A stretch of DNA of 64,000 bases from positions 102,386 through 166,385 of the IMG/VR virus record IMGVR_UViG_3300034102_003517; one strand, written 5' to 3'. Positions 17,407 through 59,583 of this stretch are shown here, piece after piece. The notes beneath the pieces were generated by a model, which saw only the letters and a program-made list of their open reading frames with translations, was not told where the DNA came from and made no database searches. Position 1 is the first letter of the stretch, and each line of letters opens with the position of its first letter. A program made the position numbers and the translations under genes. The DNA is from a virus.

Positions 17407-20079
17407 ATGGCTTGTATTAGTGGATATACAAATGGAATTTATACTTATGTTGACTGTTGTGGATTGACAAGGGTCGGTGCATCATCAGGTGAAACTGTAT
17501 GTTTGGACCAAAGTTACTCTGGAAGTGCCGTAAACATAGTGTATGATACTGGTAGTACTTGTACACAGGCTTGTAGTGGAACATCTGAATTATCTTATTT
17601 TTTCACGGTAACTGGTACATGTGGAATTGCAAATGGATCGGTTACTATATCCCCTAACGGAGGTTACCCACCATACACAATTGACCCAATTTTTCCTGTG
17701 GGTCATGGATTGTCCGCACAAACAGGAACAACTTCAATAACTTTTACGGGGCTTACTGATGAAACTTATGTTTTTAGACTCAACGACTCGTTAGGTGATG
17801 TTAATTCGGAATTGTTTATAAATGTAAGTGTCGGAAACTGTTTTAGTGCAACTACAACTTTTGTTGAAGGTACTACCTGCGGTTTAGAAAACGGTTTAAT
17901 AACTGTGAGTGCATCATCAACGACACCACCATATAATATTCTTTTATATAAGGATGAAGTTCTAAATCAAATACAACAAACAAATTCAGTACCATATATA
18001 TTTCCTGAATTAGGTGAGGGTATTTACTACGCATTACTTGTTGATTCAAGTAATGTTACCGCTAAAACAGAAAATGTTGTCATAAGTGCTAGTACACAGT
18101 TAGATTTTGGTTTATGGAAGGTAGATACTTCACAGTGTGCAACTGACAAAGGAAAAATTTCTGTCACAGGACAAACTGGTGTATGTCCATACACCTATTT
18201 ATGGTCTGACGGACATACAGGTCAAACTATAACAGGACTAACGGTAGGTGAATATTCAGTAACCGTAACAGACAGCCAAGGGTGTGAGTTAACAAAAAGT
18301 GTTTTTGTGGATATAGCATCACCATTGGGGGTTGGTTTGGTCACAGGAACTAACCCAACATGTTTTAGTAACAATGGAATTATAGATATTACAATAACAG
18401 GTGGAAGTGTTCCATACTATTACTCGGCATCGTCTGGTAATATAGGAGTTACACTATCTAATGAATTATCAATTACGGGGTTAACCGCAGGGGATTACCA
18501 AATTATTATAAAAGATGCTAATCTTTGTACATTAGATTTTATAACAGAACTTAACTCAGTTAATGGATTCAGAAATGTAAGTAATACTATAACAAACTCA
18601 ACCTGCTCATTTGATAATGGGTTAATACAGACAAGTATTGTTGGGTTGTATGGTTTCTACTCTTACATTCTTTCGGGTCAAAATACGAATCAGGTGTTTA
18701 CTAAGTTTACACAGGACCAAAATGTGACATTTGACGGTTTGGAAACCGATACATACCTATTAACAATATCAGGAAACTCAAGTAGTTGTGTTTATACCGA
18801 AACTTTGGAAGTTACATCCGAAAGTAAGTTTACGGTTACAGCAACAACAACACCATCGTCATGTGGATCACAAAGCGGATCTATCTCTGTAAATGTGAGT
18901 ACTGGTTACACAGAACCGATTGATTATGTCTTAAGTAATGGTAACACATTACAAAATGTAAACTTTTCTTCATACACATTCAATTTCTTAACACCTGGAA
19001 GTTATACACTACAAGTGACTGATGCTGATAACTGTACGGTAAGTTTAGATTTAACCGTACCATTAAGTGGTAATCTAACATCTACATTAACTAAAACCGA
19101 CTGTACTAATAATAATGACGGTGCTGCGACCGTAACAATTTTTGATGGTGCACCACCATTTACATTTGATTGGTCAGATAATGTTCCTTCAGGGAGTACA
19201 GGGAGTACTGTGACTGGATTGTCGGGTGGAAGTTATTCGGTGACTGTTGCAGATAATAGTGGGTGTACTGAATTTTGGACATTCGACATAGTATGTAATC
19301 AATATTTAGTTACAGGTAGAACAAGATATAATGTCGTTAATCAAAAATTTGACACACTTACAGGAACCAAGAGATCTATTCAAAAAATGATAAATGAAGG
19401 ATTTTTTGACCTAATAAATTTATCAGGGTACTCCAATTGTATATTAAATAAAGTAGAGTTAGAAGCATTAGTAACCATTAATGGGTCAACATCGGGACAA
19501 ACATTTACATATGCCGATGATTATTCTTGGCAACACGCAATCGAAGCTATTTTAGACATAATACCCGAGGTAAACGCATATACTATAAGTGTACTCAATA
19601 ATACATTGGAAATAACATGTGATTGTAGTTCTATCAGTAGTAACTACTTCAAAATTGAATTAGAAATCACATATGACATCAAATGTTCGCAATTAACAAC
19701 ACCAACTCCAACACCAACACCAACTCCAACACCGACACCAACTTATGTGCCGACATCAACACCTACTGCGACTCCAACACCAACCCCAACATCGTCAGGT
19801 ATTGTTTGGTTTACAAACCTTGATATTTACAATATTGCTGATGAAGATGTTTGTGAGGATACAATTTGTAACAGAAGTCTCTATTCTACGGGTGCAACGA
19901 TTAATGTTGGTGATGTGATATATACGGATCCATTATTAACAACTAAATATGTTGGGACTAATTTTGGACCTACGGATGGATTTGCAAGAATTTATGTTTC
20001 AAGTGCTTGTCCGATAACTACTCGAAATGTGTTACAAGTTAACGATTTAGGTGTCGTATTATCTAAATATGTCTGTTAA
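17407..20079 (+). CDS. Fibre/adhesin-like protein with SprB-type repeats and Thr-Pro linker
   Basis: 890 residues. From about 70 to 620 there are roughly seven repeats of about 75-85 residues, each beginning near a Cys with an 'NG.I.v...GG.pPY' pattern and ending 'G.Y.v.vtDs.GC'. The clearest is about 243-300 (YLWSDGHTGQTITGL, then GEYSVTVTDSQGCE). This is the SprB repeat known from Bacteroidota gliding adhesins. Residues about 763-797 are a Thr-Pro tract, followed by a Cys-containing C-terminal domain (about 800-890) that resembles the C-terminus of the fibre at 27327. It heads the adhesion region, so a tail-fibre or surface-decoration role is likely. The exact virion location is unknown. 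Confidence 0.72.
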   Translation: MACISGYTNGIYTYVDCCGLTRVGASSGETVCLDQSYSGSAVNIVYDTGSTCTQACSGTSELSYFFTVTGTCGIANGSVTISPNGGYPPYTIDPIFPVGHGLSAQTGTTSITFTGLTDETYVFRLNDSLGDVNSELFINVSVGNCFSATTTFVEGTTCGLENGLITVSASSTTPPYNILLYKDEVLNQIQQTNSVPYIFPELGEGIYYALLVDSSNVTAKTENVVISASTQLDFGLWKVDTSQCATDKGKISVTGQTGVCPYTYLWSDGHTGQTITGLTVGEYSVTVTDSQGCELTKSVFVDIASPLGVGLVTGTNPTCFSNNGIIDITITGGSVPYYYSASSGNIGVTLSNELSITGLTAGDYQIIIKDANLCTLDFITELNSVNGFRNVSNTITNSTCSFDNGLIQTSIVGLYGFYSYILSGQNTNQVFTKFTQDQNVTFDGLETDTYLLTISGNSSSCVYTETLEVTSESKFTVTATTTPSSCGSQSGSISVNVSTGYTEPIDYVLSNGNTLQNVNFSSYTFNFLTPGSYTLQVTDADNCTVSLDLTVPLSGNLTSTLTKTDCTNNNDGAATVTIFDGAPPFTFDWSDNVPSGSTGSTVTGLSGGSYSVTVADNSGCTEFWTFDIVCNQYLVTGRTRYNVVNQKFDTLTGTKRSIQKMINEGFFDLINLSGYSNCILNKVELEALVTINGSTSGQTFTYADDYSWQHAIEAILDIIPEVNAYTISVLNNTLEITCDCSSISSNYFKIELEITYDIKCSQLTTPTPTPTPTPTPTPTYVPTSTPTATPTPTPTSSGIVWFTNLDIYNIADEDVCEDTICNRSLYSTGATINVGDVIYTDPLLTTKYVGTNFGPTDGFARIYVSSACPITTRNVLQVNDLGVVLSKYVC
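19696..19800 (+). repeat. Thr-Pro-encoding microsatellite-like tract
   Basis: Near-tandem ACACCA/ACTCCA hexamers encode (Thr-Pro)n with a few Ser, Ala, Tyr and Val interruptions. Third-base variation among units suggests the amino-acid pattern is maintained, not just recent slippage. Confidence 0.85.
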
Positions 20080-20081
20080 TA

Positions 20082-20360
20082 ATGGCTAGTGGTTTGGTAA
20101 TATCGGGTGAAACGGGGGGTAATCCACCATACCAATTTTTTATATGTGATGAAAATGGTAATAATTGCCAATATATTGGTACAACAGGAGGAACCTTTAC
20201 CCTTAATAGTTTTTTTCAAACTGCAGAAACCATAATGGTCAAACTTGTTGACAGTAATAATTTTGAAGTTTTCCAATTAATAAGTTGCCCAATAGGGTAT
20301 TTATTACAAGAGAACGGTTATTACATATTACAAGAAAACGGTTTTAAAATTATACTATAG
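20082..20360 (+). CDS. Small fibre-associated protein, paralogous family A
   Basis: 92 residues, 2 bases after the SprB-repeat gene. The pattern 'G.tgg.pPy.ffiCde..n.C.yI', then a hydrophobic strand pair and 'vKLvDSnnf', is shared with the whole 28941 protein and the first 75 residues of the 21906 protein. The C-terminal end contains a near-duplicate: YLLQENGYY then YILQENGFK. No known family recognised. Position between fibre genes suggests a fibre-tip or adaptor module. Confidence 0.65.
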   Translation: MASGLVISGETGGNPPYQFFICDENGNNCQYIGTTGGTFTLNSFFQTAETIMVKLVDSNNFEVFQLISCPIGYLLQENGYYILQENGFKIIL

Positions 20361-21896
20361 ATGTCACAAGATTTAAGAATATCTCAACTACCATTTGTAA
20401 GTTCAGGGCAACCACAATCTATTATGGTGCTTGTAGACTACAGCACTAATGCTTCAGGAATAACAAGTGCAATATATTTTTCTTCTATTACTGCGAGTAT
20501 TAGCGGCGGTACAGGTACTTCCGGATCTTCAGGAAGTAGCGGTAGCTCGGGTTCTTCAGGAAGTAGCGGCACCTCTGGTACCTCAGGTAGCGGTAGCTCG
20601 GGTTCTTCAGGGTCGAGTGGTTCTTCAGGAAGTAGCGGTACCTCTGGTACCTCAGGTAGTGGGAGCTCGGGCTCAAGTGGAACTAGCGGAATCTCAGGTT
20701 CTTCAGGGTCTTCAGGAACATATGGATCGAGTGGAAGTAGCGGCTCTTCAGGATCTAGCGGAACAAGCGGTTCTTCAGGAAGTAGTGGAAGCTCAGGGTC
20801 AAGTGGAACTTCAGGAAGTAGTGGAAGCTCGGGTTCTTCAGGGACTAGCGGAATTAGTCCTGATGGTTTATATCTACCTTTATCAGGTGGGACTGTAACA
20901 GGTAATACTTATTTTGGTATTACATCAGGTATTACTTTGGACCAAGTTAATAATAGATTGGGTATAAATACAAACAATCCACAACATACAGTTGAAGCGT
21001 TTGGGACAAAATCTAAAATCACTTATGAAAATACAGCAGGTGGTGTATTTCAAATATCAGGTGATACTTTCTTACCAAGAATTAATGTGGCAGGGGCCCC
21101 ATCTGTAACCAAACCATTATTTAGTTTATCTGCAGGTGTTAGAACTTGGGACGATGTAACATATCCTGGATATGGTAAAGTTGGCGACACATTCATATAC
21201 GCCTCCAACGAAGCAAACGGGCTTAATATTATCAATCGTCAAACATCAGGTTCTACAATAGAGGATTACATTAGATTTTATGCAGGTCAAGACGCTAATG
21301 GAACAATACCTGATATTCATATCCAAGGTACTGGTACTACAAGAGGATATGTTGGATTTGGTATTACTAACCCAACAGAAATGGTTGACATATCTGGTAA
21401 TACAAAAGTTGGAGGACGAATAACTGCACCAACAATTTCGGCAACTACAATATCAGCAACGACATTTAATCTTTCGGGTTCACAAATAGAAACTGCTTGG
21501 GCATCATATACACCAGTTTGGACAGCAAGTGTTACTAACCCTGTAATTGGTAATGGAACTATAGAAGGATACTACAAAGTAATCGGTAAAACATGTTTTG
21601 TTAGGGGTAATATTGTGATGGGTAGCTCAACAACATTTGGTTCAGGTGAATGGTATGTATCGATGCCGTTTACTGCCGCTAATGCGGATGCTATACTATT
21701 GACAGCCACGTTATTAGATAATGGTTCCGCTTGGTATAATGCTACTATGGTTGGGGCAAGAGCTGGATTTAACACTAAAGCTCCGATACAATATCAAACT
21801 ACAGGTGGAACCGCTAACGATGTTAATTCAATCCAACCGTTTACTTGGGCAAGTACTGATAGATTCATTTGGAACGGTAGTTATGAGATACAATAA
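20361..21896 (+). CDS. Tail fibre with collagen-like Gly-Ser-Ser tract
   Basis: 511 residues. The N-terminal 48 residues (starting MSQDLRISQLPFVSSG) may be the attachment domain. Residues about 49-172 are collagen-like Gly-Xaa-Yaa triplets, almost all GSS or GTS, with two places where a GSG step breaks the triplet phase. After this comes LYLPLSGGTVTGN, a common phage-fibre motif, then LGINTNNPQHTVEA and GFGITNPTEMVDISGN. The C-terminal 150 residues are a compact beta-rich head (TPVWTASVTNPVIGNGTIEG). It abuts the previous gene and is followed by another fibre gene. A trimeric fibre role is well supported by architecture. Confidence 0.82.
   Translation: MSQDLRISQLPFVSSGQPQSIMVLVDYSTNASGITSAIYFSSITASISGGTGTSGSSGSSGSSGSSGSSGTSGTSGSGSSGSSGSSGSSGSSGTSGTSGSGSSGSSGTSGISGSSGSSGTYGSSGSSGSSGSSGTSGSSGSSGSSGSSGTSGSSGSSGSSGTSGISPDGLYLPLSGGTVTGNTYFGITSGITLDQVNNRLGINTNNPQHTVEAFGTKSKITYENTAGGVFQISGDTFLPRINVAGAPSVTKPLFSLSAGVRTWDDVTYPGYGKVGDTFIYASNEANGLNIINRQTSGSTIEDYIRFYAGQDANGTIPDIHIQGTGTTRGYVGFGITNPTEMVDISGNTKVGGRITAPTISATTISATTFNLSGSQIETAWASYTPVWTASVTNPVIGNGTIEGYYKVIGKTCFVRGNIVMGSSTTFGSGEWYVSMPFTAANADAILLTATLLDNGSAWYNATMVGARAGFNTKAPIQYQTTGGTANDVNSIQPFTWASTDRFIWNGSYEIQ
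20512..20855 (+). repeat. Gly-Ser-Ser collagen-like coding repeat
   Basis: About 115 codons of GSS/GTS triplets. Serine codons alternate between AGT/AGC and TCT/TCA/TCG types, so the amino-acid periodicity is stronger than the nucleotide periodicity. The tract is also visibly richer in GC than its surroundings. Confidence 0.85.
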
Positions 21897-21905
21897 TAAA
21901 AATAG

Positions 21906-23042
21906 ATGATAATACAAATAACTGGTGTAACAAGTGGAACAAGTCCATATGATGTATTTTTATGTAATACTGGATATACGTCTTGCTTTTTAATATCAGG
22001 TAGTTGTCAAATACCACCTACAGTTGTGGTGGATACTGATTACTTTTTTCCTAATTATGATTCTATCGGTGTTAAGTTAATAGATAGTAATGGATGTATA
22101 TATACCGAAAATAAAGTATGTATTCCTACACCTACGCCTACACCAACTCCGACTATCTCACCAACACCTACTTCGACACCAACACCTACACCCACAGTTA
22201 GTCCAACACCTACACCTATACCACCGACAGCAACACCAACTCCGACTATCTCACCAACACCGACTCCTACCCCAACCCCAACTGTTTCGCCTACACCAAC
22301 TCCTACCCCAACAACACCACCTGATGTTGTTATTGCATCATCCTTTGATGACAATAGTGATTTTTACTTGTATAGTATAAACGATAATACGATGCAAGGA
22401 GGTTATAATTTGAGTGGGTTGACAGATGGTGGCACATTGGCGAATAGTTCAAACAAAATTTGGGTAAGACCATTTGATGGTGGTATTGACGAGTTGAATT
22501 ATACCTTAAATCCTTTTAGTGTAACATACAGTAGATCAATCACAAACCCTTTTTCTGAAAGTACTAGACAAGGATTTGAAGCAAAAGACACTAATACTTT
22601 GATTTGTACACACTATGATCAAACAGGTACATCTTTGAATTATGTCTATAACATAGACATATCTGGAAGTGCTGCAACTTATACACAACTATTTCAATTA
22701 CAAGGATCACTTTCGGGTGATCCTGCGATACAAGACATTGTATTGTCGACTACAGGTGATTTAATAATTTTGGGTGGTGACGGAACAAACTATTACATAC
22801 AACAGTATAATTATTCATCAGGGGCAACATTAGATATAGAAATAGACATAACAACAGGTGTAACGACACCGACAGGTATTATCGGAAGTAGTGGATCAAT
22901 TTATATTATAGACTCAAATGGTGAGACATATAGTATAGAAGTTAATTCACCGTATCTTGTGAGTTCATACCAAACGACTCCAGGACCAAATGTTTTTTAT
23001 ACCACTCAAAATATTGGTAGTTTAACGGTTTCTTTTAATTAA
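21906..23042 (+). CDS. Fibre-like protein: family A domain, Thr-Pro tract, beta-rich C-terminal domain
   Basis: 378 residues. Residues 1-72 belong to the small family A also found at 20082 and 28941 (CFLISGSC, then [11 protein letters not shown]). Residues about 73-139 are the longest Thr-Pro tract of the window, with TVSPTP and TISPTP variants. Residues about 140-378 contain repeated short strand patterns such as [20 protein letters not shown], suggesting a beta-propeller or similar repeat fold. Reasonable alternatives are a receptor-binding fibre or a decoration protein. It is the last gene before the glycosyltransferase cassette. Confidence 0.68.
22125..22324 (+). repeat. Long Thr-Pro-encoding tract
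   Basis: About 66 codons of Thr-Pro dipeptides with regular Ser/Val/Ile interruptions, built from ACxCCx hexamers with varied third bases. The antisense strand is open but encodes only an artefactual Gly-Val tract. Confidence 0.85.
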
Positions 23043-23086
23043 CCTTTATTTAGTCAAATCATAGGTTATTTTTCAAATAAAAATCT

Positions 23087-24334
23087 ATGAAAATTTTTAT
23101 TCAGATTGCTTCATATCGTGACCCTGAACTAATCCCAACTATCAAGAGTTGTATTGAAAATTCAAAAAATCCTGAGAACTTAGTTTTCAGTATTGCAAAA
23201 CAATTTCACCCTGATGACAAATTTGATGATCTGTCTGAGTATAGTGACGATGAAAGATTTAAAGTGATTGATATACCTCACGAAGAGTCAAAAGGGGTAT
23301 GTTGGGCTAGAAACCTTACCCAACAACAATATGATGGTGAGGAATACACATTACAAATAGATTCCCATATGAGATTTGAAAAAAATTGGGATAAAATGTT
23401 AATCAACATGGTTAAACAACTCCAAGAAATAGGCATACCAAAACCATTATTAACATCGTATGTGCCTTCATATAACCCAACGAATGATCCCGATGGTAGA
23501 GTCCAAGTTCCTTGGAGAATGGCGTTTGATAAATTCATACCTGAAGGTGCGGTTTTCTTCTTACCTGAGACAATTCCAAATTGGGAAGAAATTGAAATGC
23601 CAGTGCCGGCTAGATTTTATTCTGCACACTTCTGTTTTACTTTAGGTCAGTTTTCGAAGGAAGTTCAACACAATCCTGAATATTATTTTCACGGAGAGGA
23701 AATTTCAATAGCCGTTAGGGCGTTCACACATGGTTATGATCTATTTCATCCACACAGAATTGTGTGTTGGCATGAGTATACCAGAAACGGTAGAACAAAA
23801 CAATGGGATGATGATAAAGAATGGTACAAAAAAAATGAATCATCACATCTTACAAATAGAAAATTATTTGGTATGGATGGGTTAGAACAAGAAGGTCATG
23901 ACGGACCTTATGGTTTTGGAAAAGAAAGAACATTAAGAGACTATGAAATATATTCCGGACTTTTATTTGAAAAAAGATCTGTTCAGGACTACACCCTACA
24001 AAAAAATTACCCACCAAATCCATATGAATATAATTCAGAAGATGAGTGGAAGGAAAGTTTTGTAAAAGACTTTGAATACTGTATCAGTGTAGATAGATCA
24101 AAACTACCTGAGAATGATTATGAATTTTGGGTTGTTGCTTTCCATAGAGAAGGTGGTGAAACTTTACACAGACAAGATGCAGATATAAATGAAATAAATT
24201 TCCTAACGAGAGAAGAACCTCAGATGTATAACATCTGTAGAAAATTCCAAACAGCCGAAAAACCTAATTATTATGTAGTCTGGCCGTTTTCTAAATCTAA
24301 AGGTTGGTGTGAAAAAATAGAGAAAAAGTTATGA
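23087..24334 (+). CDS. GT60-like (GlcNAc-type) glycosyltransferase
   Basis: 415 residues. The N-terminus IFIQIASYRDPELIPTIKSC, the segment KGVCWARNLTQ, and LQIDSHMRFEKNWDKMLI (about 90-107, with a DSH in place of DxD) match the 'Glycosyltransferase (GlcNAc)' family, CAZy GT60. A later HGEEISIAVRAFTHGYDLFH (about 203-222) is also typical. Characterised GT60 enzymes are eukaryotic and transfer GlcNAc to protein hydroxyproline or Thr/Ser, including on mucin-like substrates of Trypanosoma cruzi. Here it heads five overlapping transferase genes between Thr-Pro-rich fibre genes, so a fibre-modifying role is attractive but unproven. Donor and acceptor cannot be read from the sequence. It overlaps the next gene by ATGA. 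Confidence 0.82.
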   Translation: MKIFIQIASYRDPELIPTIKSCIENSKNPENLVFSIAKQFHPDDKFDDLSEYSDDERFKVIDIPHEESKGVCWARNLTQQQYDGEEYTLQIDSHMRFEKNWDKMLINMVKQLQEIGIPKPLLTSYVPSYNPTNDPDGRVQVPWRMAFDKFIPEGAVFFLPETIPNWEEIEMPVPARFYSAHFCFTLGQFSKEVQHNPEYYFHGEEISIAVRAFTHGYDLFHPHRIVCWHEYTRNGRTKQWDDDKEWYKKNESSHLTNRKLFGMDGLEQEGHDGPYGFGKERTLRDYEIYSGLLFEKRSVQDYTLQKNYPPNPYEYNSEDEWKESFVKDFEYCISVDRSKLPENDYEFWVVAFHREGGETLHRQDADINEINFLTREEPQMYNICRKFQTAEKPNYYVVWPFSKSKGWCEKIEKKL

Positions 24335-24930
24335 ATGTAGAAGTAGTAGTTGCAAAATTTAATGAGGATGTGAGTTGGACTAAAAATGTAAAACACAAAG
24401 TTACAATATATAATAAGAATAGAGAAGACGACCACTTATATGAAAATAATCTTCCTAATTATGGTAAAGACGCTCAAACTCATTTGTATCACATAATAAA
24501 CAATTATGATAATTTAACGGACTTTACTATTTTTTTACAAGGTAATCCTTTCGATCATTATTGTGAAAATTGTGTAGAATTTATAAACAGTTATAAATTT
24601 GACAAAGAATTCCATCCGTTAGGTGCGACCTATGTACGAGATAATGAAGGTTGTATAAAACAAGCAACTGATTATTGTGATAAGATGGGAATAAGTTATG
24701 AATTACCTTTTATGTTTGTTGCTGGTATGCAATGTATCGTAAAAAAAGAAACAATTCAAAAAAACAGCCGTGATTTTTATGTAAAATTGATAGAAAGTAT
24801 TAGAAAAACTATATCATTATCCTCAGGACCGGGTGACGGAAACGACAATAATATTTGGGCTTTGGAGTATACATGGCCAACAATTTTCGGTGTAAATGAC
24901 CAATTAACTCATAGATTAAACAATTGTTAG
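24331..24930 (+). CDS. DUF3431-type putative glycosyltransferase
   Basis: 199 residues. VVVAKFNEDVSWTKN at the start, IYNKNRED, then LPNYGKDAQTHLYHIINNYD and FTIFLQGNPFDH (about 68-80) match the DUF3431 family, often found beside polysaccharide genes and thought to be GT-A-like. Length is within the range of the family's core domain. It is translationally coupled to the GT60-like gene by an ATGA overlap and is followed after 1 base by another transferase. Enzymatic activity has not been shown for this family to my knowledge, so the function is tentative. Confidence 0.72.
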   Translation: MNVEVVVAKFNEDVSWTKNVKHKVTIYNKNREDDHLYENNLPNYGKDAQTHLYHIINNYDNLTDFTIFLQGNPFDHYCENCVEFINSYKFDKEFHPLGATYVRDNEGCIKQATDYCDKMGISYELPFMFVAGMQCIVKKETIQKNSRDFYVKLIESIRKTISLSSGPGDGNDNNIWALEYTWPTIFGVNDQLTHRLNNC

Positions 24931-24931
24931 T

Positions 24932-25750
24932 ATGAAAAAAGTGTTAACTGGACTATGTAACAACATATCCCAAAACATAGGTAAAATAAAAGTTTGGTCT
25001 AATAGCTTCAAAAGATCAACAGACGGAGATGTCGTACTACTTTGTGCAAACTCAACGGAGGACGAGATAAAATTATGCGAACAATTAGGTATTATACCAA
25101 TTAAGGTAAATGTTGAGGATACATGGTTTATTAACAATAAGAGATTGAAACATACTTTAGATTTCATTACAACATCTGATTATGATTTTTATTTGATTAC
25201 AGATGTTTTTGATGTTGTCTTCCAATCGGACCCGTTTGTTAAATTCACAAATGACTATGATGTTTTTGTGGGTTCTGAAGGTTTAAAAATAAATGAAGAG
25301 CCTTGGAATGGTGATGTAATATCTAAAGTATTCCCCGAAGATTTAGAGTTATGTCGAAACCATGAAATTATATGTTCAGGAGTAATCGGAGGAAAAAAAG
25401 AAGAGTTAATTAAACTTTATACCAAAATGAATGATATGTGTGAAAACAGTAGTAACTTACACAACATCAAAGATCAAGCGGCATTGATTGTAATGATTGC
25501 TAAAAATGAAATTGAAAAATTAAAAATATTTTCTTTTGATGAGGGTTGGACTGTACATTGTGCTGTTGGTGGACCTACACAGTTCTTTGAATCATGGGGA
25601 TTTAAAAATACTCTTATAAATAGATACGGAGGTATTCCATATCTTAAAGATAATAAAATATATAACCACAAAGACCAAGTCTATGACATTGTACACCAAT
25701 TCAATAGAATACCTGAGTGGAATGAAATAATACTAAAAGAATATGAATAG
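24932..25750 (+). CDS. Putative GT-A glycosyltransferase
   Basis: 272 residues. YDFYLITDVFDVVFQSDPF (about 87-105) has the hydrophobic strand and Asp-rich turn of GT-A fold enzymes, where acidic residues bind the metal-nucleotide sugar. SGVIGGKKEELIKLY later resembles the 'n.G...g..' acceptor-side motif of GT8-like and related enzymes. It sits in the centre of the transferase cassette and overlaps the next gene by 8 bases. No specific CAZy family assigned. Confidence 0.65.
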   Translation: MKKVLTGLCNNISQNIGKIKVWSNSFKRSTDGDVVLLCANSTEDEIKLCEQLGIIPIKVNVEDTWFINNKRLKHTLDFITTSDYDFYLITDVFDVVFQSDPFVKFTNDYDVFVGSEGLKINEEPWNGDVISKVFPEDLELCRNHEIICSGVIGGKKEELIKLYTKMNDMCENSSNLHNIKDQAALIVMIAKNEIEKLKIFSFDEGWTVHCAVGGPTQFFESWGFKNTLINRYGGIPYLKDNKIYNHKDQVYDIVHQFNRIPEWNEIILKEYE

Positions 25751-26489
25751 TGTATATTGTGTCTGTACGACACCTGATGTGTATCCGGCATATGAGAATA
25801 ATTGGAAAAACTTCACTAAAGACATTGTTTGGGTGACAGATAATAGTAAAAATGAAAACTTTAATTTAGGTTTTACATATACAGAAAAAAAATTAAGAGA
25901 ACAATTAGATTTTACTGGTGAGGTCAGTAAAAGACATTATTGGAATTCAAACGGGAATCGAAATATAATATGGTTCTACGCTCATTTTAGGATGTTAAAT
26001 TATTACACCCAAAACCCCAATTATGACTATTATTGGTTTTTTGATGACGATGTAAAAGTTGGGAATTGGGATTTATTTTTTGAAGGAACGGATAAAGACG
26101 ATTCAGACTTTTTAGGTTATATCGTATTCAAGGACTCAAATGTGATTACACAAGAAAAAATACCAGTAATTGATAACAGAACCACATCACAACACATGTG
26201 GTTTGAAAGATTTCCGGGCGATGGAGATATTTTACCCGATGACATTAATGAAAAGTTTGGTTCGTTTTTTCCAACAAACAGATTTTCTAATAGGGCTATG
26301 AAAAAATTATTGGAAATACACGAAGAAGGTTTACACGGATATTCTGAAGGATTTGTACCAACCATGTTGAACAAATATGGATATACACTAAATACGATAA
26401 TAAAATCTGATAATACTTCTGATTTTTTTGATGTCGATCAAGTAAACATACAACATAAAAACATAAAAATAAATTGGGAATGGATATAA
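25743..26489 (+). CDS. Putative glycosyltransferase, GT-A-like
   Basis: 248 residues. It opens with a short strand (SVYCVCTTPDVYP) and has YYWFFDDDVKVGNWDLFF (about 95-112), whose DDD is a likely metal-binding DxD motif. A later HGYSEGFVPTMLNKYGY resembles the acceptor-binding end of GT-A enzymes. It overlaps both neighbours in the cassette. Family membership uncertain; the strong DDD motif and context support a sugar transferase. Confidence 0.62.
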   Translation: MNSVYCVCTTPDVYPAYENNWKNFTKDIVWVTDNSKNENFNLGFTYTEKKLREQLDFTGEVSKRHYWNSNGNRNIIWFYAHFRMLNYYTQNPNYDYYWFFDDDVKVGNWDLFFEGTDKDDSDFLGYIVFKDSNVITQEKIPVIDNRTTSQHMWFERFPGDGDILPDDINEKFGSFFPTNRFSNRAMKKLLEIHEEGLHGYSEGFVPTMLNKYGYTLNTIIKSDNTSDFFDVDQVNIQHKNIKINWEWI

Positions 26490-27271
26490 AGAAAACGGCA
26501 TTAGTCACCGCGCTATTTGATATAGGAAGAGATAAATGGGACAATTTTACGATGTCTTATCACACATATATTTGGTGGATGAGAAGTTTGCTTTATTTGG
26601 ATACTAATTTGATAATTTACACCGAAGAAAAGTTTAAGGATCAAATCATGAATTTCAGAAAAGAGGTTGACCCCAACTTAGAAAAGACAATTTTTGTGAT
26701 ACAACCTTTAGAACAAATCGACGGTTATAAAACATTTAATGAACCTCTCCAAAATTTAATGTCATCCGAGTCATTTAAAAAGAAAATACAATTTGATGTA
26801 CCAGAAATGACAAAACCGTTGTACAATGTTGTAATGTTTAGTAAGTTGTATTACATCTTAGACTCATACAAAAATAATTATTTTGATGCTGACTTATATG
26901 TTTGGGCAGATGCGGGAGTGATTAGAGAAGACCACCCGCAAAAAAATGTACACTGGCCAAATTTAGAAAAAATTAATAAACTTGATAATGATAAAATAAC
27001 ATTTTTCTGTCATCACGATTATGTGAGAGTCGAAAACCAAGAATTCCACGCACTTTCACAAACAAGGTTTATTCAAGGAGGGTCTTTGTTCGTACCGAAA
27101 AATAAAATAGAAGATGCGGTTAAGATTTTTGAAAAGGTTACACTTAATTCTATTAACAATGAGTATGTTGGTAGTGATGAAAAAATGTTTGACTTTATGT
27201 ATCTATCTGATCCTGAAAAATACAATTTGATAAAGTGTGGATGGAGAGAATATATTGATCTATTCTTATAA
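26480..27271 (+). CDS. HtrL/YibB-like putative glycosyltransferase
   Basis: 263 residues from the ATG at 26480, preferred over an upstream TTG in the same frame (26474); it overlaps the previous gene by 10 bases. ALVTALFDIGRDKW at the start, SKLYYILDSYKNNYFDADLYVWADAG (split around residues 120-146) and QGGSLFVPKN match the HtrL/YibB family. These are proteins of lipopolysaccharide or capsule loci, predicted to be glycosyltransferases; WADAG carries the candidate acidic metal site. It is the last gene of the cassette, followed by a 55-base gap with a TATTTAT motif. Confidence 0.7.
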   Translation: MDIKKTALVTALFDIGRDKWDNFTMSYHTYIWWMRSLLYLDTNLIIYTEEKFKDQIMNFRKEVDPNLEKTIFVIQPLEQIDGYKTFNEPLQNLMSSESFKKKIQFDVPEMTKPLYNVVMFSKLYYILDSYKNNYFDADLYVWADAGVIREDHPQKNVHWPNLEKINKLDNDKITFFCHHDYVRVENQEFHALSQTRFIQGGSLFVPKNKIEDAVKIFEKVTLNSINNEYVGSDEKMFDFMYLSDPEKYNLIKCGWREYIDLFL

Positions 27272-27300
27272 TAAAATCTTTAATAAAACGAATATTTGAT

Positions 27301-27307
27301 TATTTAT
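27301..27307 (+). promoter_or_regulatory. TATTTAT motif, candidate late promoter element
   Basis: Ends 19 bases before the ATG of the next fibre gene, in the gap between the transferase cassette and the second fibre cluster. Confidence 0.4.
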
Positions 27308-27326
27308 ATAATAAAGTTAAACCTAA

Positions 27327-28937
27327 ATGGCAAATATTTTATTTGAAGGTTGTTATTATCCTGGATATCAGTTCTTTACCGATGAGAGTAATTGGACAGG
27401 GGCGACTTCCGCAGTAACATCAGTTTTTTCCTTTCAATCAGACACAACCGTTCCTAATGGTTGTTATACGATTGTTTCTGCGTTCACATCAGGTTATACA
27501 AGTGTGAGTTTTGTGCCCGATGGGGTTTATACATTACAAGCTAATTGTTCTGCAACTGCTTGTAACTCTTCTGCTTTTTGTAGTAATGAAATTTGTATCA
27601 CAATAAACAACGATACCTATAGTGGGTATAGTGGTGTTTATGAAGTTGCCGGAACTAATGGCGGATACCCGTATTGGACAGGATCGACAAATGGTTTTGT
27701 TTATTTTACGGGAACTCGTTGGTGTCTTAGTAATTCCTTATCTGGGACATGTTACTTTTTTGGGTCACAACCAACTAATGCGACCTGTCCAGATCTAAGT
27801 GAAACAATTTCCTATACAGGATCTTGCTTACCGACCCCAACACCGGCAAACCCTTGTTCAGGACTAACTTTTAACGCTTCATTAGATTGTGATTTTGTAA
27901 CACCCACACCAACACCGACACCTACATCTAGTCCTACTCCGACACCAACACCGACACCTACGCCAACACCTTGTGTTTTTACGGCTACAATTACATTTAG
28001 TGCAGTCACTACCCCAACACCTACACCTACCCCAACACCTACACCAACACCAAACTATCAGTACACAATAACTGGTGAGAGTGTTGTATTTGTGGTTGAA
28101 CAAGGATATTTTAATTGCCCAACAATAAAAGTATTGGAAGATTGTAATAATGGTCAGATTTATTATGTGGGTGGACCAATAATTAGTGGTACAACGACTA
28201 TTGCGACAGGAACTACATTACAAGCAAGAATTGATAATCAAGTCAGATGTGTCACATACACTGAAGATATTGCAGGTAGCCCGTCAAACTATTTAAATTC
28301 TATTTTGGCAACATATGGGTCATGTGTTGGATGTGTCACACCAACACCAACACCTACTCCTACCGCAACACCAACACCTACACCAACTTCGAGCCCAACA
28401 CCAACACCTGTTGTGACTTATGAACCGTATACTCAATTTGTATTCACAGGGTGTAATAATAATCTGATGATTGTACAAGATGAAACACCACCAAGTAATG
28501 TGAACATTGGTGATATAATCAAAGATCAAAATATTGGATGTTTTACATATATTGGGTTCTTTGTTAGGTATTCACCACCAAGTGGTTACAAATGGTCAAA
28601 CCAACCAATATTTACCGCTTCAACTGCAACAACATATGTGACATGTCTTGAGTGTTTAACACCAACACCAACGCCAACATTTACATATAAATCTTGGTCA
28701 GCTCAAGGTGGTTTTAGTGTATCGTGTCCTGTTTGTCAGTTGACGGACGGAGGTACTAATCTAACATTCTATACTTCATCTACGGTTGACACTTTAGAAA
28801 CAGGAAACTTTATTTATCAAGATAGTTCTCTTACTGAACCAATAATTGAAGACTATATTAGATATAATGGATTCATATATTCTGTTGATGTAAATGGACA
28901 AATAACACAGTTTTGTAGAGTAAATGGAAATTGTTAA
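27327..28937 (+). CDS. Multi-domain fibre-like protein with several Thr-Pro linkers
   Basis: 536 residues organised as small Cys-containing domains joined by Thr-Pro tracts (about 190-216, 228-244, 336-364, and a short one near 443). Two domains (about 245-336 and 365-443) share a pattern: an early aromatic strand with a Cys, a central 'CvTYt' or 'CFTYIG', and a closing CVGC or CLEC. A third copy is in the 29174 protein. The segment GGYPYWTGSTNG (about 110-121) also has a counterpart there (NGYPSWTAS). The C-terminal 85 residues resemble the C-terminus of the 17407 protein. Modular architecture and location point to an adhesin or fibre, but no database family was recognised. Confidence 0.68.
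   Translation: MANILFEGCYYPGYQFFTDESNWTGATSAVTSVFSFQSDTTVPNGCYTIVSAFTSGYTSVSFVPDGVYTLQANCSATACNSSAFCSNEICITINNDTYSGYSGVYEVAGTNGGYPYWTGSTNGFVYFTGTRWCLSNSLSGTCYFFGSQPTNATCPDLSETISYTGSCLPTPTPANPCSGLTFNASLDCDFVTPTPTPTPTSSPTPTPTPTPTPTPCVFTATITFSAVTTPTPTPTPTPTPTPNYQYTITGESVVFVVEQGYFNCPTIKVLEDCNNGQIYYVGGPIISGTTTIATGTTLQARIDNQVRCVTYTEDIAGSPSNYLNSILATYGSCVGCVTPTPTPTPTATPTPTPTSSPTPTPVVTYEPYTQFVFTGCNNNLMIVQDETPPSNVNIGDIIKDQNIGCFTYIGFFVRYSPPSGYKWSNQPIFTASTATTYVTCLECLTPTPTPTFTYKSWSAQGGFSVSCPVCQLTDGGTNLTFYTSSTVDTLETGNFIYQDSSLTEPIIEDYIRYNGFIYSVDVNGQITQFCRVNGNC
27897..28060 (+). repeat. Two Thr-Pro-encoding tracts
   Basis: Tracts at about 27897-27973 and 28010-28060 encode (Thr-Pro)n flanking a short segment around CVFTATITFSAV. 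Hexamer units have mixed third bases. Confidence 0.8.
28335..28420 (+). repeat. Thr-Pro-encoding tract
   Basis: About 28 codons of Thr-Pro with Ala and Ser interruptions, linking two homologous Cys-containing domains of the same protein. Confidence 0.8.
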
Positions 28938-28940
28938 TTT

Positions 28941-29162
28941 ATGAGTACATCAGTAACAATACAATCAGTAACAGGGGCAACAACACCAATAGATTTATGG
29001 ATTTGTGATGATTGTTCCACGACATCAAGTTGTCAATATATTAAGACAATTAACTCGTTACCACACACCTTCACATTACCCTCAGTATATGAAGTTGCCA
29101 CGCAATATGCGATAAAATTGAATAGTGCAAATGGATGTACCTTTTGTGCTGTTTATACTTAA
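28941..29162 (+). CDS. Small fibre-associated protein, paralogous family A
   Basis: 73 residues: 'V.gaTtPidlwiCdd', then CQYIKTINSLPHTFTLPS and a final AIKLNSANGC. The same pattern occurs in the 20082 protein and at the N-terminus of the 21906 protein. It starts 3 bases after the preceding fibre gene. It is probably a compact beta domain used as a tip or adaptor; function unknown. Confidence 0.65.
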   Translation: MSTSVTIQSVTGATTPIDLWICDDCSTTSSCQYIKTINSLPHTFTLPSVYEVATQYAIKLNSANGCTFCAVYT

Positions 29163-29173
29163 TAATTTGTTAG

Positions 29174-30799
29174 ATGCCTGCTTTATCTGGTAATTCTTGT
29201 CAAGTAATAACATTATTTCCTATGGGAGTAGAATGTGTGGTTACAGATGCATATACCCCTTTTACTCAGGACGGTGCAATTAACTTAATAATCACTGGTG
29301 GAACACCACCATACTCTGTTACATGGAGCAATGGATCGGCAAATCAAAATATTACAAACCTACAATTTGGTGACTATACCGCAACAGTTGTTGATTATTA
29401 TGGTGATTTTAGTGCAACTACAACATGTACTGTTGAGTTTGATACTTTTTATTTACAAAGATTTGAAAACTGTATTGATCCCACAAATGTTATTTTTTAT
29501 TTAGCAGATATCACACAAAGTCAATATGTTATAGATGAGGTTTACAGTATTAATGGTCAGAGTGGGTGTTGGAATAGAACAGGAGTAATATTGTATACTA
29601 ATCAAACTTATTATAATTATGAACCTGTATTTGTTTCAGGTCCTTTTGATTCTTGTGGGGAATGTTTACCAACAGTTCCTGCGTTGTTGAATGTTTCAGG
29701 ATTATGTGTGACCTCAAATTACCAAGGTTCACAAACACAGTATCAGTTTCTTTCAGGTGGAACAATAAATGGTTACCCTTCTTGGACTGCCTCCACACCG
29801 TCTCAAACAATGTATTACAACACGGCAAACACCATGTGGATGATAAATGGTTGGCAACTTAATGGTCAACCTTCATTACCATCGGCAGTCAGTCCACCAA
29901 TTGGAATTTGGAATGTTTTAGGAAGTAGTAGAACTGTTTCGGTGAGTTTAGGTAACTGTTCAGCCACAATTTCGGCAATTATTACCACAAATAACCCAAG
30001 TTGTACAGCAGCATCTAATGGAAGTATACAAGTAAGTAATGTTATTGGTGGAGACCCACCATATACATATTCATTGATTAATACACCAGCATCTTACCAA
30101 GTATCAAACTCATTTACAAACTTATCTAATGGTGTATATACTGTTTATGTACAAGATTTTGATGGGAACATATCGGCAAATGCCGTCAACCTCCAATCAT
30201 CCACAAGTGTAACCCAATATACTGTTTCCTTAAATTTTGTACCAACTAATGGACAAACAACCACATCGACAGGTAGTGTATCTAAGGTTTATAATTGGGT
30301 AGTAAGTGTGTCGCCATCTTTACCTGCGGGTAGACAATTATTGTTTAATGTGACACATGTAACTAATTTTACAAGAGGAATAACAAACATAACACCTACA
30401 ATAGTACATAGTGTTACAACAGGTACGACAGGTGGAGGTCAATATTTATCTTCAGCTTCCACAATTACATCATCAGTATCAACAACAAACGCTTGTAATT
30501 CGAGTACTAACTATATATCATATCAGACAAGTGCTAGAACAAGAACTTACAGTGCTAGAATTGTTGGAGCAGGAACGGTTAGTAGTAATGTAGTATCAAC
30601 TATTAGTACGGCTGATAGTACATTCCCTTGTACGAACTTTGGTGAAACTGCAGATAGTATCTCCCTTTCGAATATAACTTTAGTGAATCAAAATATTTGC
30701 GAAAGTATAAACACTTCCGTATCACCTATATCGTTTAGTAACTTTAGACAATCTATTGTATTGATTAGTCCTGGTGGTAATGTATCAATTGCGGGATAA
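29174..30799 (+). CDS. Fibre/adhesin-like protein with SprB-type repeats
   Basis: 541 residues. Two SprB-like repeats are visible, at about 35-88 (GAINLIITGGTPPYSVTWSN, then FGDYTATVVDYYGD) and about 274-335 (NGSIQVSNVIGGDPPYTYSL, then NGVYTVYVQDFDGN). Between them, about 90-170 is a copy of the CxxC-ending domain found twice in the 27327 protein, ending CGECL. The C-terminal 200 residues are Ser/Thr-rich and beta-like. It has no Thr-Pro tract. Last gene of the second fibre cluster; the following gap contains a TATTTAT motif. Confidence 0.68.
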   Translation: MPALSGNSCQVITLFPMGVECVVTDAYTPFTQDGAINLIITGGTPPYSVTWSNGSANQNITNLQFGDYTATVVDYYGDFSATTTCTVEFDTFYLQRFENCIDPTNVIFYLADITQSQYVIDEVYSINGQSGCWNRTGVILYTNQTYYNYEPVFVSGPFDSCGECLPTVPALLNVSGLCVTSNYQGSQTQYQFLSGGTINGYPSWTASTPSQTMYYNTANTMWMINGWQLNGQPSLPSAVSPPIGIWNVLGSSRTVSVSLGNCSATISAIITTNNPSCTAASNGSIQVSNVIGGDPPYTYSLINTPASYQVSNSFTNLSNGVYTVYVQDFDGNISANAVNLQSSTSVTQYTVSLNFVPTNGQTTTSTGSVSKVYNWVVSVSPSLPAGRQLLFNVTHVTNFTRGITNITPTIVHSVTTGTTGGGQYLSSASTITSSVSTTNACNSSTNYISYQTSARTRTYSARIVGAGTVSSNVVSTISTADSTFPCTNFGETADSISLSNITLVNQNICESINTSVSPISFSNFRQSIVLISPGGNVSIAG

Positions 30800-30825: not shown

Positions 30826-33036
30826 ATGTCATATATTAATAAAATAACAGGACCATTAATTAGTACGATTTTAACGGATGCTGCTAGAAAAAGGATGTCC
30901 CAAGGAAATTTCAACATCTCTTATTTTCAAGTTGGTGATAGTGAAGTTTCTTACAACACGATAGACAATTTAGTACCTTCTCAGTTGAATGTTTTGATGC
31001 CACAGTATAACGCTCAAAACTTGACACCGGCACCAGAAAGTAATAGACACCATGTTAAATATCCTTTATTTTTAGACTCGACTTCAGGATCCACCTATGG
31101 TATACCATATGATGCATCATATGTTGATAATATTTATAACTCTGCAGCGCCAAGAGGTTTTTTTACAGGATCGACCGCATCGACATTTAACTTTAGTGCT
31201 TATACTTCTTCCGCATATACTATTAATCCTAACTATTATGTGTTTAATTCTGGACTTACATCAGGTAATACAATAACTATTAACTTAGGATCCTTAGCAC
31301 CAACTGTGTCGGGTACGGTGACACCTGGTATGTTTTTAACATTGTTTACGACTAACTCAATCACTCCTGTAAGTGGTAATTCATCCATGTTTACATATAC
31401 TGTAGTTGCTATTACTGGAAACACATCTGGAAATACTACTGTCACAGTACAACTTGATAGAGATGTGCCTAATTTTAGTACTATGGGTTATTCTGGAACA
31501 TCATATGCTTTGTTTTATCCATCAGGGATGACCTCATTGTACGATTCCATTACACCACAAATATATTGGGCATCAAATGTATTTAATTACGAAACAAACT
31601 GTGATGTATCCCAATCTGATGTTAAAGTTTGGAATATGAATATTCCATGGACTGAGTCACCGGCCGGAGTATTCCCAAACAATGTTCAAGATTTTAATTA
31701 CTATAAGTCCACAGGTTATACAGGTTCAAAAGAATATTTCGGATACACTTCTAATAGCGGTCAAGTTGATACAGGATCTGTTTATTTTACTAACTCACTC
31801 GATCAAAACATTATCCTTAGTCCGAGTGATCAAAAATCAATTGCCATTATACACTATACAAATCAAGCGATAGATAACTTTTATGGTGAAAAATTTGCAC
31901 AACAACCGTATGATGATACAAACCCTGGTGGGACTGGACAAGCCAGAAACTTCAAGATAAGTATTCCATGGTTAATGTGGCATAAGAACACCAACGCAAC
32001 AATAGGACAAGATTTTTACACAGACCCATCTGGATTCACTAGTCAAAATCTGTTCGAAGCTCAATACATAAAATCAAAAAAAGATGCACAATTTAATAAT
32101 CCTGGTTTGAGATATTATTACCTATGGGATACACACGCGAATGCGGATGGAAAACCAAGTAGAGTTGGTAAAGTTTTCCCTGATTATAAAATGGTTATTT
32201 TTGATGACGATGAAATCGTGGCGGCATTGAGTTATAAATCAAATAGATCTTGGACATTACCAGCACCTAAAATAGGAACCATAATACCAAACGCATGTGA
32301 AGGCGTATTAGGTGAAGATGAAGGACTTTTGAGTGCTAATACAGAGTCAGTATTTGTGACTTACAGATTTAATAATTCGGCATTTACAAATTCATTACAT
32401 TGTAATTACTACACTAGAGTTAATCCTGTTTTATTTGACCCTAATCAACCTACATATAATATATTCTTAAAATTTGGAAATGAATTTCCTTTCTTAATTT
32501 CAAATACTTCAACAATACCTACAGGATACACTGCGAATCAAATGAAAGTTTTAGTACAAAAGGTTAGTAGTGGTACGACAAGACCGAACTCAACAGCATG
32601 GAAAGAAATTGATGTTATGACTCAATTATCTGCGTCAACAACTAATGGATTTTTAACTGTGAGTGGTTTAACTGGATCTACGATACAAATCACTAAAGAT
32701 ATGTACGATAATGCGCCAACATATGATCTAACAAATTACATTGACTTACCAAGTTTGGGTTCAACAGGAGTAACTTTGAATTTTGGTGGAGAATATTATT
32801 TTTACGGCGTATTGAAGACTGATATTCAGGCAACAATTTATGTTATGAACTTCCTTTGTAATTTAGGACAAACACAATTTCTAAACTCAACAAATCCTAC
32901 ATGGGACGGAACAGCACCTTATGTAACTGAGGTTGCTCTTTACAATGACCAAAAAGAACTTATGGTTATTTCTAAGATACAGTCCCCTGAAAAAAGACAG
33001 GGTATACAACAGTATCCTGTTAAATTGGATTTCTAA
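30826..33036 (+). CDS. Putative tail/baseplate structural protein
   Basis: 736 residues. The first 35 residues (ISTILTDAARKRMSQGNFNI, then FQVGDSEVSYN) look like a conserved assembly segment, and much of the rest is beta-rich with many Ser, Thr, Asn and Tyr. The segment KVWNMNIPWTESPAGVFPNN and the C-terminal EVALYNDQKELMVISKIQSP also look conserved rather than low-complexity. It is last in the structural block and 6 bases upstream of the RuvC-like gene. No named family; a virion role is inferred from context. Confidence 0.65.
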   Translation: MSYINKITGPLISTILTDAARKRMSQGNFNISYFQVGDSEVSYNTIDNLVPSQLNVLMPQYNAQNLTPAPESNRHHVKYPLFLDSTSGSTYGIPYDASYVDNIYNSAAPRGFFTGSTASTFNFSAYTSSAYTINPNYYVFNSGLTSGNTITINLGSLAPTVSGTVTPGMFLTLFTTNSITPVSGNSSMFTYTVVAITGNTSGNTTVTVQLDRDVPNFSTMGYSGTSYALFYPSGMTSLYDSITPQIYWASNVFNYETNCDVSQSDVKVWNMNIPWTESPAGVFPNNVQDFNYYKSTGYTGSKEYFGYTSNSGQVDTGSVYFTNSLDQNIILSPSDQKSIAIIHYTNQAIDNFYGEKFAQQPYDDTNPGGTGQARNFKISIPWLMWHKNTNATIGQDFYTDPSGFTSQNLFEAQYIKSKKDAQFNNPGLRYYYLWDTHANADGKPSRVGKVFPDYKMVIFDDDEIVAALSYKSNRSWTLPAPKIGTIIPNACEGVLGEDEGLLSANTESVFVTYRFNNSAFTNSLHCNYYTRVNPVLFDPNQPTYNIFLKFGNEFPFLISNTSTIPTGYTANQMKVLVQKVSSGTTRPNSTAWKEIDVMTQLSASTTNGFLTVSGLTGSTIQITKDMYDNAPTYDLTNYIDLPSLGSTGVTLNFGGEYYFYGVLKTDIQATIYVMNFLCNLGQTQFLNSTNPTWDGTAPYVTEVALYNDQKELMVISKIQSPEKRQGIQQYPVKLDF

Positions 33037-40634: not shown

Positions 40635-41240
40635 ATGGGAAGAATTAAGAAAGAAGAAATGAAGTCACAAGATAAAAGATATATGTTGTTTATTTTCGGC
40701 GATTTTTCGGAAATGGAAAACTTTATTGATGAAATTTCGTATCAATTAGTTACTATCGTATCTAGTGAGTTTTTAAAATTCAACTACGGTGAGTTTGGAA
40801 TGGTTTTACACTTTAGAACCAAAGAAACATTTGCTGAGTTGAAAGACTATATTGACATGTGTTTAGAGGGTCAAGTAGAACAGTATTTTTTGATGGAAGC
40901 GACAGAAAATGTAGATATCAAGATGGACAGAAAATTGAAGAAAGATTTTTTAAATATTGACGGAGTTAAGAAAGAAAACAAGAACAAAGAAGTAGATGTA
41001 GAAAAATTAAATGAAGAAAAAGAGAAAAAATTAGGTAATATCATGGAATTTATTTTACCTTTGTCGGATGAAAACTTTGAGTTTCCGATGAAGTTTAAAA
41101 GACCTGAATCACCTAAACCAACAGTGGACCAAATTTTAGAAAAGATAACAGAGAAAGGAATAGAGTCATTAACAAAAGAAGAGAAACAAATATTAGACAA
41201 TTATGGAAAGAGAGAAAATGGAGGAAACAAAATCAACTAA
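40635..41240 (+). CDS. Protein of unknown function with DUF6576-like C-terminal tail
   Basis: 201 residues. The N-terminal half has alternating strands and helices (YMLFIFGDFSEMENFIDEIS). The middle is charged and coiled-coil-like. The end, VDQILEKITEKGIESLTKEE, closely resembles the 'vDeILdKI...G.dSLT.eEK..L' tail found on Bacteroidota rhomboid and other proteins. It overlaps the sigma-factor gene by 38 bases (or 23 if that gene starts at 41218), so the two are likely co-expressed. An interaction with transcription is conceivable but not shown. Confidence 0.55.
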   Translation: MGRIKKEEMKSQDKRYMLFIFGDFSEMENFIDEISYQLVTIVSSEFLKFNYGEFGMVLHFRTKETFAELKDYIDMCLEGQVEQYFLMEATENVDIKMDRKLKKDFLNIDGVKKENKNKEVDVEKLNEEKEKKLGNIMEFILPLSDENFEFPMKFKRPESPKPTVDQILEKITEKGIESLTKEEKQILDNYGKRENGGNKIN

Positions 41241-59400: not shown

Positions 59401-59583
59401 ATGAGTTTTAACAAAAGAATTCTAAAAAAAGAAAACATACTTAATCACACCCATGATCTTATGAGATATTTAGACGCCGATGCAATTATTTGCACCGACG
59501 ATTTTTCGCGCAAAGTTTATAGGATGTTTGTTGAGAAATCCACTAAAGAAGAAATAATAACCGTAATAAATAAAATGAAATGA
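59401..59583 (+). CDS. Small protein of unknown function
   Basis: 60 residues. HTHDLMRYLDADAIICTDDF suggests a small alpha/beta or helical domain. Its stop overlaps the glutamine synthetase start by ATGA, so the two are translationally coupled. Confidence 0.55.
   Translation: MSFNKRILKKENILNHTHDLMRYLDADAIICTDDFSRKVYRMFVEKSTKEEIITVINKMK

Follow-up and report, generated by a model that had tools for sequence, protein, structure and literature searches.

Mucin-type O-glycosylation, in which a polypeptide HexNAc-transferase acts on a Thr/Pro-rich protein, counts as a process of eukaryotes. The partners of the GT60 enzymes of Trypanosoma cruzi are Thr/Pro-rich mucin-like proteins, and in this they resemble the phage fibres described here. 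GT60 is a family of polypeptide α-GlcNAc-transferases akin to the animal polypeptide GalNAc-transferases, and one of its members, Gnt1 of Dictyostelium, is a cytosolic enzyme which modifies a hydroxyproline of Skp1 (PMC8724618). Glycosylation of phage virions is already known: mycobacteriophages carry glycans on the C-termini of their capsid and tail-tube proteins (Freeman et al. 2023, as given in PMC12619734). For Xanthomonas phage XacN1, proteomic analysis is reported to have shown at least two glycoproteins, which the authors suggest to be the work of phage transferases (PMC5852040). PMC12619734 also describes the moraphages, which are aquatic, T4-related large phages of Bacteroidota. We found no prior report of a phage GT60 or of Thr/Pro-rich phage glycoproteins in the literature searched, which did not extend to subscription papers; as far as this literature shows, the new elements are a mucin-type initiating enzyme, its Thr/Pro-rich partners and a plug-in cassette.

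We analysed the final 64 kb of a 166,385-base IMG/VR virus record (this stretch is called the window below). The record probably belongs to a large aquatic phage with a host in the phylum Bacteroidota. Of the glutamine synthetase and DnaJ/DnaK genes which characterise moraphages, this phage has a glutamine synthetase (PF00120, 1.1e−17, at 59580) and a DnaJ (TIGR02349, 7.7e−73, at 49706). Its 1004-aa tail protein, which begins at 14380 and opens the tail region, had no tblastn matches among named phages, so there is no isolate near the window phage.

All genes of the tail region lie on the + strand, in the order 14380, 17407, 20082, 20361, 21906, a cassette at 23087-27271, 27327, 28941, 29174 and 30826. 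The second gene encodes an 890-aa fibre-like protein (17407-20079) with SprB repeats (PF13573, 4e−23) and Thr-Pro tracts at 19696-19800, and about 50 relatives have a homologue at this position. It is followed by a small 92-aa fibre-associated domain protein (20082-20360), the position of which is kept in relatives, by a 511-aa collagen-like fibre with a Gly-Ser-Ser/Gly-Thr-Ser tract (20361-21896; PF01391, 1.8e−12, and PHROG tail-fibre families) and by a 378-aa fibre (21906-23042) directly upstream of the GT60 gene. This last fibre has an N-terminal domain of ~73 aa, which also precedes GT60 in many phages, and then a Thr-Pro tract at 22125-22325; it is a likely GT60 acceptor. On the far side of the cassette lies a 536-aa fibre-like protein (27327-28937), also a likely acceptor, with tracts that are kept in most of its orthologues. 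The original prediction of three fibre-like genes with Thr-Pro tracts and one with a Gly-Ser-Ser tract holds, as do the ORFs and their coordinates, except that the third Thr-Pro region is not a single stretch to 28420: a tract scan resolved it into four tracts spanning 27900-28682 (27900-27974, 28008-28055, 28338-28412 and 28659-28682). The region continues with a small 73-aa fibre domain protein (28941-29162), which adjoins the 536-aa fibre in relatives too, a 541-aa fibre-like protein (29174-30799), again a neighbour kept in relatives, and a 736-aa structural protein which is baseplate-like by position (30826-33036). The 736-aa protein matched 324 viral stretches and was used as an independent anchor for sampling relatives.

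Adjacent Thr-Pro units shared their third codon positions at a value of 0.397, compared to 0.413 when shuffled, and the codons of the tracts were similar to the general codon usage of the window. Recent DNA slippage was ruled out as the origin of the tracts by this test. As the units show no excess of third-position sharing and use ordinary codons, an artefact of replication does not account for the tracts, and their codons point to selection at the level of protein sequence.

The predicted overlapping cassette of five genes between the fibre genes was recovered: the genes at 23087-27271 are co-directional, overlap or abut, and are headed by a GT60-family enzyme. Phage-encoded transferase genes thus lie among structural genes, an arrangement expected of a virion glycosylation system. 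The first gene (23087-24334) encodes a polypeptide HexNAc-transferase of family GT60, the predicted initiating enzyme (PF11397, 2.7e−68; 231.5 bits, the cut-off being 21; PHROG 24687, 3.7e−160). The last gene (26474-27271, possibly starting only at the ATG of 26480) encodes an HtrL/YibB homologue which passes the Pfam cut-off (PF09612, 1.5e−26; 94 bits against 24.1) and falls below that of the NCBIfam YibB equivalog (101.9 bits against 264.9), and is therefore a distant homologue of YibB rather than an orthologue. Its AF2 model (pLDDT 93.6) matched xyloside xylosyltransferase, LARGE1 and the blood-group enzymes GTA/GTB in Foldseek, and in this model the protein folds as a retaining GT-A enzyme. 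The description of all five genes as putative glycosyltransferases thus stands for the first and last genes, and for the three between them it is likely from their sequences and placement, short of a firm assignment. These are a DUF3431 protein (24331-24930; PF11913, 8.9e−14), a protein with no Pfam match and a weak match to the PHROG 1579 glycosyltransferase family (24932-25750; 9.8e−5), and a protein with a DDD motif in WFFDDDVKVG (25743-26489), which had no family match in Pfam, PHROG and NCBIfam profile searches and is classed by its position in the cassette, being kept in L005 and L268.

We compared the GT60 protein to solved structures. Its profile had no match among PDB chain sequences, so that a comparison of folds was needed, and an AF2 model was built with 50 relatives which are 31-80% identical to the window protein (mean pLDDT 93.7). 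The best 31 PDB matches of this model in Foldseek were all polypeptide GalNAc-transferases, several of them with mucin peptides, and further down the top 50 there were GT-A enzymes of bacteria, TarS and GlfT2 among them. The TM-scores were moderate (about 0.5 by query length, with an rmsd of about 4 Å for the catalytic part), because the protein has a C-terminal beta-rich domain of its own. D92-S93-H94, which is invariant across the 50 sequences, corresponds to the DXH metal motif of GT27; the modelled protein has a GT-A fold with a motif of the DXD/DXH type, for which the metal role is taken over from GT27. PF11397 was the only family which Pfam found in the protein, and neither a ricin-type lectin domain nor a GT27 profile was detected. 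The structural comparison hence favours reading the enzyme as a polypeptide transferase.

Close relatives of this enzyme were nearly absent from Bacteroidota chromosomes: a genome scan gave 1 match, a family profile gave 5 of 398 relatives, and alignment gave 1 strong match in 395. A host origin of the GT60 gene was ruled out by this near-absence of close relatives, which indicates that the family is centred on phages.

The question of whether GT60 genes accompany mucin-like proteins was addressed with a survey of loci which had been fetched by GT60 alone and dereplicated at 90%. We defined a mucin-like ORF as one with some 30-residue window of at least 60% Thr/Ser/Pro, at least 6 Pro and at least 9 Thr/Ser; this definition was set after examples had been seen, and was left unchanged for the controls, GT11 and GT2-type, which were added later and are two families from the second glycan block of the window phage. 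A mucin-like ORF was found within three genes of GT60 in 22 of the 25 dereplicated loci, and immediately upstream of it in 13 of the 25, compared to none of 56 GT11 loci and none of 26 GT2-type loci within three genes (Fisher: P = 6e−17 and P = 1e−11 respectively, values which are overstated as the sequences are related). Among all unbiased GT60 loci, 44 of 54 had a mucin-like ORF, against 27 of the 129 genes (21%) across the record of the window phage itself, and in 5 of the 54 such an ORF was absent from view. In other phages, the proteins encoded just before GT60 have a strikingly mucin-like sequence, as in TPTNTPTNTQTPTKTPTPTPTNT (L010, L060, L069 and L071). GT60 was also found on 11 of 50 contigs with Thr/Pro tracts and on none of 48 with Ala-Pro tracts, which lends weak support, the Ala-Pro contigs being shorter and from other phages. 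The distribution of Thr/Pro-rich fibres and GT60 therefore favours the original idea that the phage glycosylates its own fibres.

Part of this linkage may be to fibres in general rather than to the tracts, since the fibre modules of this group are Thr/Pro-rich. Thr/Pro-rich ORFs are nearly universal in the family sampled by the 736-aa anchor, so co-occurrence within that family does not discriminate. Some contigs on which no GT60 was detected likewise carry Thr/Pro-rich fibres, among them L271 (89 kb) and L419 (108 kb), though these contigs are fragments. Such fibres suit an explanation which we regard as rather unlikely, namely that the cassette glycosylates virion proteins other than the Thr/Pro tracts, for example the Ser-rich collagen-like fibre or a fibre head, and that the tracts are flexible linkers. 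In L061 and at other loci, the gene immediately before GT60 encodes a collagen-like GSS/GTS protein, and the mycobacteriophage glycans at capsid and tail-tube C-termini (cited in PMC12619734) are a precedent for such acceptors. Against it are the Thr/Ser/Pro-rich ORFs near GT60 in 22 of 25 loci, a similar association in a bacterial chromosome which has no fibres (see below), and the GT60 fold, which matches that of the enzymes initiating mucin glycosylation.

Scanning with the GT60 protein yielded 246 viral relatives, of which 80 were kept. In most of them GT60 lies directly 3' of a fibre-type gene, 0-13 small genes in the same direction come next, and a YibB homologue often closes the cassette: of 98 distinct GT60 genes for which the sequence reached far enough downstream, 63 had a recognisable YibB within 14 genes. 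The internal genes vary from phage to phage and are sugar enzymes: GT25, the GT10 and GT11 fucosyltransferase families, GT2, GT61, FkbM and rhamnosyl methyltransferases, DegT aminotransferases, and carbamoyl-, acetyl- and sulfotransferases. GT60 is the sole transferase at the site, directly before a Thr/Pro-rich fibre, in L034, L040, L246 and L255. Three close relatives, L228, L229 and L243, have a different small gene on the reverse strand at this site, GT29-like in L228, and still possess the Thr/Pro tracts; either another initiator serves these phages or the tracts are independent of GT60.

The GT60 cassette recurs at several unrelated genomic sites. The genes from GT60 to YibB lie between the 378-aa and 536-aa fibres in the window phage, adjoin the gene for a DNA polymerase B in phages such as L010, and stand beside proteins of 2833 and 1794 aa in L447; the corresponding place next to the polymerase in the window phage's own record (L463) has no cassette. 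Isolates which carry the cassette are XacN1, RAS14 and CM1. The GT60 proteins of XacN1 and Stenotrophomonas phage RAS14 are 43-46% identical to that of the window, and in both phages GT60 is grouped with a carbamoyltransferase and a YibB homologue, and the giant proteins 3' of the cassette have Thr/Pro tracts. ORF350 of XacN1 has a long mucin-like domain. A Saprospiraceae chromosome also has a GT60-YibB pair, with a GT60 64% identical to that of the window, which is divergent from a secreted Ser/Thr/Pro-rich protein with SPTPTTSVSPSNS repeats and a T9SS sorting domain. By sequence, its chromosomal neighbours are UvrB, Nif3-like, TatA-like and carbamoyl-phosphate-synthase-like genes. A second Saprospiraceae genome has the same pair at the same chromosomal place, on a contig which ends before the position of the partner. 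The Saprospiraceae locus has no tail fibres; what the bacterial and phage loci have in common is GT60, YibB and a Ser/Thr/Pro-rich protein.

Elsewhere, the record encodes a GDP-mannose 4,6-dehydratase (gmd) above its NCBIfam cut-off and a GDP-fucose-synthase-like gene below its own, and further glycan genes comprise a DegT aminotransferase, an epimerase, GT11 and NodZ-like genes, several genes of the GT2, GT4 and GT9 families, and FkbM domains. A GDP-fucose-type pathway with fucosyltransferase-like genes is thus predicted for the window phage. YibB is located in the LPS region of E. coli and LPS synthesis employs members of the GT25, GT9 and DegT families, both of which count towards the alternative that the transferases alter host surface polysaccharide during infection, by superinfection exclusion or receptor masking. 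The best match of XacN1 ORF328 lies in Xanthomonas (PMC5852040), which agrees with this alternative. However, simple hydropathy predicted no TM segments in any glycan gene of the record, from which it follows that the record lacks a conventional flippase, polymerase and lipid-carrier transferase, and that assembly on a soluble cytosolic acceptor is likely; the membrane-bound flippase with its transferase which is the hallmark of gtr-type serotype conversion was not found in the window phage. The initiating enzyme is moreover of the polypeptide class, and several unrelated sites have the cassette flanked by genes for virion fibres. An effect on the host surface, which the original prediction had offered as its alternative, is weakened by the lack of any membrane protein among these genes, and we consider it improbable.

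Phage glycosyltransferases which hypermodify DNA are known, and one YibB-long protein of L010 has a weak match to a TET-associated glycosyltransferase (4.8e−4). Glycosylation of modified bases in the phage's own DNA is nevertheless very improbable here, as GT60 folds like enzymes which act on peptides and the record contains neither a dCMP-hydroxymethylase homologue nor a thymidylate-synthase-family gene (PF00303, for which a positive control was detected), and so gives no sign of hydroxymethylated bases. A Tet/JBP search of the record had no match, and neither did its positive control.

The record does contain a PF13640 2OG-Fe(II) oxygenase, near a Thr/Pro-rich protein and a collagen-like gene. 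Such an enzyme could make hydroxyproline in Thr/Pro-rich or collagen-like fibres for GT60 to modify, as Gnt1 does on Skp1 of Dictyostelium (PMC8724618). PF13640 proteins have many other functions, though, and the family is absent from 15 of 19 large records, nearly all of which bear GT60 and which include XacN1 and RAS14. Hydroxyproline is therefore disfavoured as a general acceptor even though the window phage has an oxygenase, and we hold this route to be unlikely.

We consider it fairly probable that the cassette is a phage-encoded, cytosolic system of mucin-type O-glycosylation for the phage's own virion fibres, and phages of this kind probably coat their fibres with sugars which they build themselves. 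GT60 would transfer the first HexNAc, from UDP-HexNAc, onto Thr/Ser of the Thr-Pro tracts in the neighbouring fibres; the later genes, ending with the YibB-type retaining GT-A enzyme, would extend and decorate this core, and the swapping of internal genes among phages would give each phage a distinct glycan. We infer the tracts as acceptor, HexNAc as sugar and the glycan on mature virions. The original proposal of fibre self-glycosylation is partly supported, by the survey, by the fold and by recurrence in unrelated phages and one bacterial chromosome; the predicted glycan may, as first suggested, lend stiffness or protease resistance, act as a decoy or serve receptor binding. The broader claim, that widespread large aquatic phages have their own mucin-type O-glycosylation, with a HexNAc-transferase and a swappable, site-mobile glycan cassette coating Thr/Pro-rich fibres, we would give an even chance. 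If true, there are bacterial viruses with self-made mucins and a sugar coat diversified by gene swapping, and an initiating enzyme of this class beside mucin-like fibres would extend mucin-type O-glycosylation to bacterial viruses. This reading would also give a function to Thr/Pro-rich tracts which are otherwise dismissed as low-complexity linkers, and would explain the variable sugar-gene clusters in phage tail regions; should the glycan mediate attachment or mask the particle, the variable cassette would be an unrecognised determinant of host range. It is directly testable, as isolates with the cassette exist and glycoproteins have been reported for one of them, XacN1.

Compared to known systems, the window phage shares with the moraphages an aquatic T4-like type, the glutamine synthetase and DnaJ genes and several core glycosyltransferases, whereas the available passages of PMC12619734 do not describe fibre glycosylation or GT60 for them. 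The GT27 enzymes, which initiate animal mucins, provide the closest solved structures to the GT60 model and share its GT-A catalytic domain with the invariant DSH motif; however, identity is about 10-17%, where those enzymes have a ricin lectin the phage protein ends in a beta-rich domain of its own, and by profile it belongs to another family. With the CAZy GT60 enzymes of protists (T. cruzi and Dictyostelium) it shares a Pfam family, above the cut-off, and like Gnt1 (PMC8724618) it is predicted to be soluble and cytosolic. Unlike the protist enzymes it sits in a hypervariable cassette between tail-fibre genes, and its activity is predicted from sequence and model. The glycosylated virions of mycobacteriophages and the glycoproteins of XacN1 resemble the proposed system in that phage-encoded transferases are tied to virion glycoproteins; for the mycobacteriophages the acceptors have no mucin-like tract and no GT60 is named, and XacN1 carries the GT60/YibB cassette as the window phage does.

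A reverse-strand gene was found to occupy the GT60 site in place of GT60 in L228, L229 and L243, close relatives of the window phage. In L228 this gene (5222-5824, - strand) is GT29 sialyltransferase-like (PF00777, 2.6e-22), and the ORFs of L229 and L243 are placed in the same way.

A chromosomal GT60-YibB pair was present in a Saprospiraceae MAG (L443:6504-11092; L480:16421-19500), divergent from a T9SS-sorted S/T/P-rich protein, and this locus is possibly a bacterial mucin-like glycoprotein system. A sulfotransferase-like gene lies near the pair. In Saprospiraceae genomes, proteins carrying a pair of GT60 domains and about 1520 aa in length were also observed (L478:9479-14029 and L479:5137-9738), with sulfotransferase-like genes adjoining them.

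The phage record (G000) contains a second glycan block upstream of the window (G000:39801-59700, - strand), comprising gmd, GDP-fucose-synthase-like, DegT, epimerase and AsnB-like genes, two GT11 genes, NodZ-like and TOD1/MUCI70-like genes and several GT2 genes. The third block (G000:1-19900) encodes a collagen-like GXY protein, a T/P-rich protein, a PF13640 2OG-Fe(II) oxygenase, a DUF6445 protein, a UDP-galactopyranose-mutase-like gene and a 978 aa GT4/GT9/FkbM fusion protein.

Within the window, a putative sigma-70-type-factor-like ORF (41203-42018) was noted by eye only, from its sequence. Glutamine synthetase and DnaJ are both reported traits of the moraphages of Bacteroidota, and the window phage likewise carries a glutamine synthetase gene (59580-60713, PF00120) and a DnaJ homologue (49706-50689; TIGR02349, 7.7e-73, under the equivalog cut-off).
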